From positions 1 through 29,196 of IMG/VR virus record IMGVR_UViG_3300009537_000124: 29,196 nt of DNA; one strand, given 5' to 3'. The position numbers and the translations under genes were made by a program. This document shows, piece after piece, positions 2,682-5,850 of this stretch. The DNA is from a virus. Under the pieces are notes generated by a model that was not told the DNA's origin, did no database searches, and saw only the letters and a program-made list of their open reading frames with translations. Every line of letters starts with the position of its first letter. Position 1 is the stretch's first letter.

Positions 2682-2820
2682 CCTGGACGAATTCGAGCGC
2701 GATTGCCGCGAGCGCCATGCGTACCAGGCTTTGGCGGCAATAGAGCGGTTTCGCCAGCGCAAAGCTGCGCGGGAAAAGGCGAAAACGGACGCACTACTGG
2801 AAAAGAGGGAACAGACATGA
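2665..2820 (+). CDS. Small highly charged helical protein (51 residues)
   Basis: ATG 2665 lies inside the end of the preceding gene, and the TGA at 2818-2820 overlaps the start of the GH5-like gene. It begins MDKKTDLDEFERDCRERHAY and is then rich in Arg, Lys, Glu and Ala through the end, suggesting one long charged helix. No family recognised. Continuous coupling to both neighbours supports translation. Confidence 0.6.
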   Translation: MDKKTDLDEFERDCRERHAYQALAAIERFRQRKAAREKAKTDALLEKREQT

Positions 2821-3833
2821 TTTTAATCAGATTGATTTTGTCAGCGATTGCCGCGCTGATGGCGCTAAGCGCATGGGCGGGTGACGTTATGCCGGCCAAC
2901 TGGCCGTGGCGCGGAGTGACGCTTGATTACCGCGCCGAAGTACCGGATTTGCAGCGATTGAAAAAGCGGCTGCCGGAACTGAACCAGATCCGCGTCACTC
3001 TCAAGCCCCAAAAGTACCGCGCCGACTATCACCGCATGACCGGGCAAGAGGCACTGGACCGGCTGCTGACAGATGCCGCGATCCTGCTGGATGAGTGCCG
3101 GGAGCTTGGTATAGTAGCCGTGCTATCGATGAGCGATTTTCCGCTGGACGGGAGCATAGACAAATCCGAGCCGAGTTTCTGGCGCGATTACCGGCAGGAG
3201 GTTATCGACACGGCTGGAGTGATGGCGGCGATATTCGCCGACCATCCTGCGGTAGTGGCCTACGAGCTAATCAGCGAGCCTTATCAGCGGGATTGGTATG
3301 GTAATAAAGAACAACCTGATGGCTGGCTGGCGTTGCAGCTTGCCGTACTGCAAGCGATCCGGCGATATAGCGGTGAACAATGGCTGGTGACGAATCCCGG
3401 TTTTGGGGGCGTTGACGCTTACGAGGATTTCCAGCCGTTGAGCGATGACAAAATCGTGTATGGCTTTCATTTTTACAAGCATATCAAGTACACACATCAA
3501 TCTGCTGATGGACACCCGTGGCCGTACCCCGGCTGGATAAAAGATTCCTTCTGGAATCACCACTCTATCCGCGCCAGTATGCGCCATGTCAGAGACTTTC
3601 AGGAACGGCACGAGGTGCCTGTGTGGATGGGGGAATTCTCTACCAAAGTTTATGCCCCCAACGCGGCCCGCTGGCTAACTGATGTGGCCGACGCGGCCAA
3701 GCGCAACCACTTTGGCTGGTCGTATCATTCTTACGGGGGTGCGAAGGACTGGAATCCAGATTATGACAGCGGCCGGATTTATCGCGGAGATCGCACGGAA
3801 AGATGGGACACACTGCGGGAGATATTTAAATGA
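2817..3833 (+). CDS. Secreted glycoside hydrolase family 5-like protein (cellulase-like TIM barrel)
   Basis: 338 residues, predicted to cleave beta-linked polysaccharide outside the cytoplasm. Residues 1-21 form a signal peptide (MILIRLILSAIAALMALSAW, cleavage near A21). GH5 landmarks visible: R59 in QIRVTL, acid/base E154 in YELISEP, H218 and Y220 in FHFYKH, nucleophile E273 in WMGEFS, and W301 in FGWSYH. Two usual GH5 residues look replaced: the Asn before the acid/base is Ser153, and the His after the third strand is not seen in VAVLSMSDFP. ATG 2817 gives an ATGA overlap; a start at 2703 would overlap the previous gene. The following gene is a lipoprotein coupled by ATGA. The substrate cannot be read from the sequence. 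Such an enzyme in an early, recombination-type operon is unusual; it may act on host exopolysaccharide or serve as a lysogenic-conversion factor. Confidence 0.85.
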   Translation: MILIRLILSAIAALMALSAWAGDVMPANWPWRGVTLDYRAEVPDLQRLKKRLPELNQIRVTLKPQKYRADYHRMTGQEALDRLLTDAAILLDECRELGIVAVLSMSDFPLDGSIDKSEPSFWRDYRQEVIDTAGVMAAIFADHPAVVAYELISEPYQRDWYGNKEQPDGWLALQLAVLQAIRRYSGEQWLVTNPGFGGVDAYEDFQPLSDDKIVYGFHFYKHIKYTHQSADGHPWPYPGWIKDSFWNHHSIRASMRHVRDFQERHEVPVWMGEFSTKVYAPNAARWLTDVADAAKRNHFGWSYHSYGGAKDWNPDYDSGRIYRGDRTERWDTLREIFK

Positions 3834-4399: not shown

Positions 4400-4416
4400 T
4401 TACCGAGCGGGAATAT
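4400..4416 (+). repeat. 17-base direct repeat, copy 2
   Basis: Exact copy of 4350-4366. It ends with the first two bases of the ATG at 4415 and supplies the weak GAGCGGG ribosome-binding sequence of the xis-like gene. Confidence 0.85.
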
Positions 4417-4609
4417 GAAAAACCTCTGGGCTGTGGCTGATATATGCGAGTTTCTCGGCTATAAGCAATCCACTGTGTACAGCCGCATTATTTGCAAGCC
4501 GGATTTTCCGAAGCCGGTTCGTCCTGGCGGGTGCAAGCCGCGCTGGTTCGCTGAGGAAGTCGAGCGTTGGGTTCGTCAGCAGCGTCCAGCCGGGCCGCGA
4601 GTTCACTGA
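4415..4609 (+). CDS. AlpA/excisionase-like DNA-binding protein (candidate recombination directionality factor)
   Basis: 64 residues. A winged-helix/MerR-type HTH: DICEFLGYKQSTVYSRIICK is followed by DFPKPVRPGG and PRWFAEEVERWVRQQ, the normal layout of AlpA/Xis-like proteins. It lies at the end of the + operon and converges on the integrase gene, overlapping it by 122 bases. By position it would promote excision by binding near attP, or act as a regulator as AlpA does. AlpA-like proteins do either, so the exact role is inferred. Confidence 0.82.
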   Translation: MKNLWAVADICEFLGYKQSTVYSRIICKPDFPKPVRPGGCKPRWFAEEVERWVRQQRPAGPRVH

Positions 4610-5549
4610 CGCGGGGGTTGTAATAAATCATGAGACTGCGTAAATCCCTGTGCCCTATCATTCGTGCTAAATCCAGAACGTCCAGTTTGCGGGCTAGCCG
4701 GGTACAGGCTTCATGTCTGGAGTCGTGGAATGTCAGGTCTTTAATCTCGGCCCGGTCCCGCGCTTTGCGGAATAGCGTAGACGCGCATGCCGCCGACACG
4801 GTGAACAGCTTGGCCCCGTCACCGGGAAGCAGCCCAATCAACCTCACCGCCTCTTTAGACAGCGGCACGTCCCGCCGGTCACGGTTTTTGGTATCAATCA
4901 GCCGCACATGGCGCGGGAACACATTGGCCGGCAGAATCCCGGTCAACTCCCCCAGCCGCATTGCGGTTTCAATCGCCAGCAAAAAAGCTACGGCAACTTC
5001 GTGTGACTTGCATGTGACTTCACCATCAAAGCACAGCGCCAGGCAAATGCGCCTGATTTCATCGTCCGTAATGCGGCGGTCCCGGTGCGCGGGTTCAGCC
5101 AGTCGCTTAACGTCTTTCAGCGGGTCATCGTCAGTCCAACCCCACACTTTGCGGGCTGTGGTTAATACCGCGCCAATCAGGGAGAGTTCACGGTTCACGC
5201 TACCCGCTGAAACCGCCTGTAAGCGCGTGTCGCGCCACTTGGCGAGGTCGTTAGTGGTCAGGTCTTTAAAGCGGATATCAGCCAGTGTATCGCGCTGTAA
5301 TTTGGTTAGCCTGATTTGCTCCCATTTGCGGCCTTTTTTGTGCGGGCTGACCTCGCGGCCGTATCGCTTGAAGGCGTCCCCCAAGGTCAGGACGGACCGG
5401 CTCCCGAGCTTGCCGGTGTCAATTTCCCGCTCGACCTGGATAGCCCATTCGCGGGCCTCGGCTTTGGTGTAAAATGTCGCAGAGCGATAAACACCCTTAC
5501 GGCGTATTTCAACCCGCCACTTGTCTCCGCGTTTTCGGTATGTCGGCAT
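4488..5549 (-). CDS. int: Tyrosine-family phage integrase
   Basis: 353 residues. It catalyses site-specific recombination between attP and the host attB. An N-terminal arm-binding-type region (residues 1-50, beginning MPTYRKRGDKWRV) is followed by a core-binding domain (about 55-155) and a catalytic domain. Catalytic residues seen: R198 in AMRLGE, H275-x-x-R278 in FHDSRHE, H300 in IGHRD, and the nucleophile Y309 or Y310 in MIYYNP. After this comes a 40-residue tail whose coding DNA is antisense to the xis-like gene. A weak -10 (TATTAT, complement of 5578-5583) lies upstream; a TGGCGCA repeat overlaps the leader, so the integrase could repress itself by binding there. Confidence 0.95.
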   Translation of the reverse strand: MPTYRKRGDKWRVEIRRKGVYRSATFYTKAEAREWAIQVEREIDTGKLGSRSVLTLGDAFKRYGREVSPHKKGRKWEQIRLTKLQRDTLADIRFKDLTTNDLAKWRDTRLQAVSAGSVNRELSLIGAVLTTARKVWGWTDDDPLKDVKRLAEPAHRDRRITDDEIRRICLALCFDGEVTCKSHEVAVAFLLAIETAMRLGELTGILPANVFPRHVRLIDTKNRDRRDVPLSKEAVRLIGLLPGDGAKLFTVSAACASTLFRKARDRAEIKDLTFHDSRHEACTRLARKLDVLDLARMIGHRDLRSLMIYYNPRVSELAARLDAADEPNARLPQRTSAACTRQDEPASENPACK

Positions 5550-5566
5550 GGCGTAATTCTGGCGCA
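5548..5566. repeat. 19-base imperfect direct repeat, left copy (candidate integrase arm site)
   Basis: atggcgtaattctggcgca. It matches 5746-5764 at 17 of 19 bases. It contains TGGCGCA (5560-5566) and overlaps the integrase start codon. Together with the other TGGCGCA copies it surrounds the tRNA-like core, the layout expected of arm-type sites. Confidence 0.6.
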
Positions 5567-5618
5567 GTTCGCCGCCATAATAGCCGAAAATGGATGCAAT
5601 GGGATGGAAAATCGGATG

Positions 5619-5625
5619 TGGCGCA
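5619..5625. repeat. TGGCGCA element, second copy
   Basis: An isolated TGGCGCA between the left 19-base repeat and the tRNA-like core. Short on its own; listed because four copies in the same orientation occur within 213 bases of non-coding DNA. Confidence 0.45.
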
Positions 5626-5718
5626 ACCCGTTACAGGATGCGGAGTTGAAGATAAATGCGGGGCGTTGGGGGAAGTTGCAAAAACAGCCGAGAGTCCGAC
5701 CTCCGGCACAAAATTATC

Positions 5719-5732
5719 GTTCCACGTGAAAC
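5719..5732. promoter_or_regulatory. parS-like site (ParB-binding consensus)
   Basis: gttccacgtgaaac fits the widely conserved bacterial parS pattern GTTnCACGTGnAAC at all twelve fixed positions. It is non-coding, lies 10 bases from the tRNA-like core, and is the only such match I noticed. No parA or parB gene is in the window, so any ParB would come from the host or from unseen phage DNA. CACGTG palindromes can also bind other regulators. Confidence 0.55.
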
Positions 5733-5745
5733 ACTTAGCGCTCAC

Positions 5746-5764
5746 ATGGCGTAAATTTGGCGCA
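5746..5764. repeat. 19-base imperfect direct repeat, right copy (candidate integrase arm site)
   Basis: atggcgtaaatttggcgca, 198 bases from the left copy, same orientation, two mismatches. A further TGGCGCA follows at 5766-5772, making two adjacent heptamers 8 bases apart on this side of the core. Confidence 0.6.
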
Positions 5765-5824
5765 ATGGCGCACAACTTTGATCGATTTGCAACAGCCGGA
5801 AGGCAAGGAGGAAAGGCGAGCGGT

Positions 5825-5850
5825 GGGGGTCTTGGGTGACCCCCGCTTTT
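5825..5850 (+). terminator. GC-rich hairpin with T-run on the + strand
   Basis: GGGGGTC (5825-5831), loop TTGGGT, GACCCCC (5838-5844), then GCTTTT. The T-run faces the + strand, although no + strand gene is visible upstream apart from the att region. On the - strand it lies just after the last late gene but without a good T-run. It may work as a barrier between late transcription and the att/int region. Confidence 0.55.

Follow-up and report, generated by a model that had tools for sequence, protein, structure and literature searches.

A site of the chromosomal parS type lies inside the phage attachment site (attP) of a 29,196-base IMG/VR virus record (hereafter the window, that is, the whole stretch of DNA analysed; a linear 29-kb contig that may be incomplete). 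With the window included, 17 records representing 11 integrase lineages carry parS beside an attP-like tRNA or tmRNA end near an integrase gene, the attP status of the recurrent cases being read from partial tRNA ends beside an integrase and not from mapped junctions. From these sequence comparisons, we propose that a chromosomal-type parS is carried as a host-factor site of the phage attachment complex, where host ParB would bind and exert an effect, a reading that we regard as an even call.

The attachment site of the window and the candidate reader of its parS

The parS-type site GTTCCACGTGAAAC (5719..5732, unstranded; GTTTCACGTGGAAC as read on the minus strand) agrees with the parS consensus GTTNCACGTGNAAC at all twelve fixed positions and with zero mismatches, as the original prediction had stated, and its free positions are Y and R, as in the chromosomal parS palindrome GTTNCACGTGNAAC. 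No other such site occurs in the whole 29,196-base record, nor does a second copy with up to 2 mismatches. Under a first-order Markov model, the window is expected to contain 0.0021 sites if either free position of GTTNCACGTGNAAC may be any base (N) and 0.0004 if both follow the actual degeneracy of parS, GTTYCACGTGRAAC, while the expectation for the 350-nt attP region is about 5e-6; the earlier claim that chance would seldom supply such a match thus held (0.0004-0.002 sites per 29 kb). The placement in non-coding DNA was likewise confirmed, with the integrase gene (4488-5549, minus strand) on one side and an exonuclease gene on the other.

The att core suspected beside the site proved to be one by its identity to a tRNA end. 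The sequence GAGTCCGACCTCCGGCAC (5692..5709, plus strand) matches the 3' end of a gammaproteobacterial tRNA-Leu(CAA) gene (L341:1434-1520) at 18 of 18 positions (L341:1501-1518), a match present in 1 of 114 gammaproteobacterial genomes sampled, and a spacer of 9 nt separates this 18-nt core from parS. A 3' end similar to the window core is found in L005, in the tRNA-Leu(caa) gene next to a related integrase, and in a Halothiobacillus MAG a related integrase directly follows tRNA-Leu(caa). Copies of a 20-nt arm-type direct repeat (D1) flank the core: the distal one, TGCGCCAAATTTACGCCATG on the minus strand, occupies 5745..5764, and the proximal one, TGCGCCAGAATTACGCCATG (5547..5566, minus strand), overlaps the start of the integrase gene. 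Both are conserved in the integrase relatives: a repeat of this type immediately precedes their integrase gene, and several have another one about 240-250 nt upstream. The region thus has the anatomy of an attP, namely a core equal to a host tRNA 3' end beside an integrase gene and flanked by arm-type direct repeats, and the parS-type site falls within its 38-nt arm-core spacer (5709..5746, unstranded). A lysogen carrying this phage was not found. The integrase itself is a 353-aa tyrosine recombinase (4488..5549, minus strand; PF00589, E=1.2e-17) with about 50% identity to its relatives, and an AlpA-like excisionase candidate of 64 aa is encoded at 4415..4609 on the plus strand (PF05930, E=1.7e-4, just over the curated cut-off). 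Elsewhere in the window, an inverted repeat of high G/C content with T's behind it (GGGGGTC...GACCCCCGCTTTT), seen by eye at 5820-5850 between attP and the exonuclease gene, is a likely terminator, and a phage-borne gene of the GH5 cellulase family (2703-3833, plus strand; PF00150, E=2.8e-14) lies between recombination genes and the integrase.

The original prediction held that the window has no par genes, and for ParB this stands. The ParB_N profile (PF02195) was not matched in the window or in 42 of the 44 tRNA-parS records searched, and for this reason host ParB is the likely reader of the phage site. By this ParB_N profile, the parB gene of a P1-like partition system was not recognised in the window, a record that may be incomplete. 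The two halves of the window site are GTTCCAC and GTTTCAC, the half-sites preferred by ParB of Pseudomonas aeruginosa (PMC10419367). A chromosomal parS, GTTTCACGTGAAAC, is present in the sampled genome from which the matching tRNA-Leu comes, and the Halothiobacillus genome also has a chromosomal parS. In 398 Pseudomonadota genomes, no parS was found after a tRNA gene in the arrangement described here; host chromosomes being without parS in that position, the phage site is not a passive copy from attB, and carry-over from host tRNA loci with a downstream parS is ruled out. The predicted recruitment of host ParB survives as the simplest reading of a site that is of the parS type, forms part of attP, comes without a detected ParB gene and recurs in unrelated temperate phages.

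Recurrence beside tRNA and tmRNA ends

A set of 2.9 million viral contigs was searched for GTTNCACGTGNAAC lying 10-40 nt behind a tRNA T-arm (GTTCRANTCC), and 63 records were recovered. An otherwise identical scan with the motif read backwards, which is a palindrome of equal composition, recovered 0 records, and a distance control with parS 71-101 nt from the T-arm recovered 16, none of them with an integrase detected within 1 kb. The T-stem is fully paired in 56 of the 65 matches of the T-arm scan, and nearly all records have Y/R at the free positions. Chance alone as the cause of the arrangement is ruled out by the expectation, the backwards-motif control and the distance control. A tyrosine integrase (PF00589) was detected in 12 of the 50 T-arm records searched, most with the site within about 0.6 kb, and 10 records have an integrase within about that distance. 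In these, the parS site lies 7 bp from the integrase stop codon (L267, L283, L309), overlaps the integrase ORF (L273), lies 230 bp (L262), 270 bp (L257), 300 bp (L261), 360 bp (L271) or 580 bp (L287) from the integrase, or adjoins a weaker integrase match (L299); L272 was excluded from the count because one of its free positions is G and its integrase is >1 kb from the site. At the integrase-adjacent sites ARAGORN detected no complete tRNA, and the tRNA ends there are therefore partial, as in attP. A scan in the opposite orientation gave 12 records, with an integrase beside the site in L054 and L337 (both with a tmRNA end), L328, L329, L336 and L335. In L336 (5666-5683), parS forms the last integrase codons (GTT TCA CGT GAA ACA, then TAA) and overlaps both coding sequence and attP.

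By pairwise blastp, the integrases of the 17 records show mostly 22-38% pairwise identity among their 11 lineages, of which some have several members (L267/L273/L283/L287; L257/L328; L329/L336; L054/L337) and others a single record (the window; L262; L309; L299; L271; L261; L335). The four P2-like members (L267/L273/L283/L287) are 55-63% identical and form one clade, with 100/100 support, apart from 19 relatives that comprise 17 loci from the 398 Pseudomonadota genomes, most of them next to tRNA ends, and two phage isolates. By our reading of the anticodon arms, their tRNA targets are Val, Met, Met and Thr. Retention of a 14-nt site through such protein divergence and a switch of target is suggestive of selection; parS was itself the feature by which the four were found, but sites that arose by chance should not be expected to fall into a single exclusive clade.

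Conservation beside attP in relatives had been put forward as a test, and its outcome is divided. It is seen across the 11 integrase lineages and in the clade of four, and fails in the nearest integrases and in the P2-like loci of host genomes. Specifically, parS is absent near attP in the nearest integrase relatives with attP sequence (~50% identity), for some of which the closest named relatives are in Acinetobacter phages, and exact or one-mismatch parS was found in 0 of the 17 P2-like host-genome loci. Because the ~50%-identity relatives have no parS by attP, the site is one gained in, or kept by, only some lineages; because it is absent from these and from the P2-like relatives in host genomes, it is not required by the integrase families whose relatives are without it. 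The recurrent records were found by searching for parS, and the share of attPs carrying it is small in the relatives. General enrichment of parS near integrases was not seen: 11 of 100 contigs with GTTCCACGTGAAAC have PF00589, and only L054 has the site beside attP. Among terminase relatives (L127-L163), the motif matched in 2 of 40 records searched, the G020 match lying in a small ORF and the G013 match not being of the parS type. The G020 site (L164:1501-1514) is the identical 14-mer GTTCCACGTGAAAC, in a record that has no PF00589 integrase and whose terminase is 39% identical to that of the window. Among isolated phages, close integrase relatives of three recurrent cases were not found, and the three isolated-phage regions fetched (L338-L340) have no parS-type site.

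The viral contigs also hold parS in other settings. In many of the other hits, complete phage tRNA genes, namely tRNA-Ile(tat), tRNA-Gly(tcc) and tRNA arrays, are followed by parS in records where no integrase was found, and attP function does not explain these. The tRNA-Ile(tat) gene with parS within a few nt occurs in L251, L252, L254, L279, L280, L286, L288, L289, L295, L298 and L305, with no integrase in the records searched. The tRNA-Gly(tcc) gene precedes parS in L253, L258, L259, L260, L265, L291, L296 and L306, in most cases accompanied by one to three more parS sites in a stretch of about 1.6 kb. Arrays occur as well: L114 (8907-13877 of an IMG/VR contig of 116,662 bases) has twelve parS-type sites within 5 kb, and smaller ones are found in L310 (6 in 2.9 kb), L321 (5), L121 (4) and L260 (4).

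IHF-like elements and the proposed role of ParB

The spacer between distal repeat and core is 38 nt long in 7 of 7 attPs compared, those of the window and of the six relatives L172, L175, L183, L196, L182 and L186. In L172, L175 and L196 a perfect IHF consensus lies inside it; the window has parS there instead, with no match to the IHF consensus WATCAANNNNTTR within 1 mismatch at 5550-5800 and a best match of 3 mismatches in the arm-core spacer. The P2-like integrase loci of Pseudomonadota genomes (L342-L358) mostly have an IHF-like element (ATCAANNNNTTA) near the tRNA CCA end: of 16 P2-like relatives without parS, 10 have one near the tRNA end with at most one mismatch, where shuffled sequences predict 1.1. 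In 7 of the 17 attP records, no more than three nt separate parS from the end of an IHF-like half, YAANNNNTTG, as opposed to 2 of 118 unselected parS records, these IHF-like elements being consensus matches noticed after the fact. On account of this abutment and of the elements in the P2-like relatives, parS appears to sit preferentially at, or directly next to, the point of IHF action in the integrase complex.

A mechanism can be sketched on this basis. Host ParB would load at parS, which lies between the distal integrase arm site and the crossover core at a distance of 9 nt from the latter; it would do so on the circle, excised or infecting, and, after integration, at one prophage end. Loaded ParB might then shape, gate or capture the integrase-attP complex at the position where several relatives have an IHF-like site. 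It could help through architecture, or as a tether between the circle and the ParA-covered nucleoid that lets attP meet attB; it could hinder by competing with IHF, or through sliding clamps that cover attP. We infer that ParB would act on recombination, or on the meeting of attP with attB, rather than elsewhere. With parS located in the arm-core spacer, which in several relatives contains an IHF-like site, a role in recombination or around it is favoured over origin-finding, a function that the original prediction had also offered. More tentatively, and at well short of even confidence, ParB may be a dedicated phage recombination factor, parS having taken over or fused to the IHF position of attP in several integrase lineages and thereby coupled integration or excision to the segregation protein of the host chromosome.

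Alternative explanations and known systems

Among the alternatives, the one that survives best, although we consider it unlikely, is that the site serves partition or tethering only: parS would allow the circle, whether excised or newly injected, to be carried along by the ParABS of the host, and attP would merely offer convenient free non-coding space, with ParB taking no part in recombination. The integrative element SGI1 is a direct precedent, as it hijacks the IncC parABS through two parS mimics, to which the ParB of the plasmid binds and by which SGI1 is stabilised (PMC10954446). Phages with full tRNA genes and parS but no detected integrase exist, and a ParB reader other than that of the host is missing. 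Partition does not explain, however, the tight placement by the core, with 10 integrase-adjacent cases at 10-40 nt and 0 at 71-101 nt, nor does it predict the abutting IHF-like half-site. SGI1 resembles the proposed attP function in that parS-like sites on an integrative element rely on the ParABS of another genome, and the window record has parS but no detected ParB. The parS copied by SGI1 is of the plasmid type, whereas the one described here is chromosomal, would be read by the host itself and is embedded in attP.

Improbable is a role at the level of the lysogen, in which ParB (and SMC) at the prophage end beside the tRNA gene would silence or insulate the integrase and its neighbours or alter local chromosome folding. 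ParB is generally known to spread over kilobases from parS, and several records have parS right next to the stop codon of the integrase gene. The location of parS on either side of the core, and hence on different prophage ends, speaks against such a role, as does the small effect on local transcription of removing 25 half-parS sites in P. aeruginosa (PMC10419367). Quite improbable, too, is a reader encoded by the phage, that is, an unrecognised repressor or excisionase that binds GTTYCACGTGRAAC: many window proteins were scanned without a Pfam match, and the 12 copies over 5 kb in the L114 contig resemble an operator array, but the Y/R degeneracy of chromosomal parS is kept across unrelated phages with different integrases, and the window has no second copy within 2 mismatches. 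Very improbable is a match that arose in the window by chance and has no connection with the recurrent arrangement, given the expectation of 0.0004 for a window and of 5e-6 for its attP region and the recurrence in 16 other records, even though the nearest integrase relatives lack the site and a scan of this kind may cover thousands of windows.

The attP function proposed here can be set beside three further systems. With the IHF/Fis sites of lambda-type and P2-type attP it shares a short site between crossover core and arm sites and a host chromosome-architecture protein as reader; the motif in those attPs is that of IHF or Fis, and here it is a ParB centromere motif with a putative recombination role. 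Phage-plasmids with partition systems likewise carry parS on a phage genome and encode their own partition proteins. Such elements, exemplified by P1 with its parABS and by extrachromosomal mycobacterial prophages (PMC7157519), persist as plasmids, whereas here an integrase is present and no ParB was found. With chromosomal parS, the site of ParB with a widely conserved consensus, the window motif is identical at all fixed positions, but it lies on a phage record beside attP and not near oriC or parAB of a host genome, and host tRNA ends are without parS (0 of 398 genomes). No system pairing parS with attP, an integrase or a prophage was found in the open-access papers searched.

Phages with parS in attP, then, probably borrow the segregation protein of their host when joining or leaving its chromosome. 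If ParB is indeed an attP factor, temperate phages would read the host segregation machinery for where and when to integrate, two fields so far unlinked would be connected, and ParB foci might attract incoming phage genomes. Such phages would also be confined to hosts with ParABS, and their attachment sites could provide a host-dependent switch for integrase tools.
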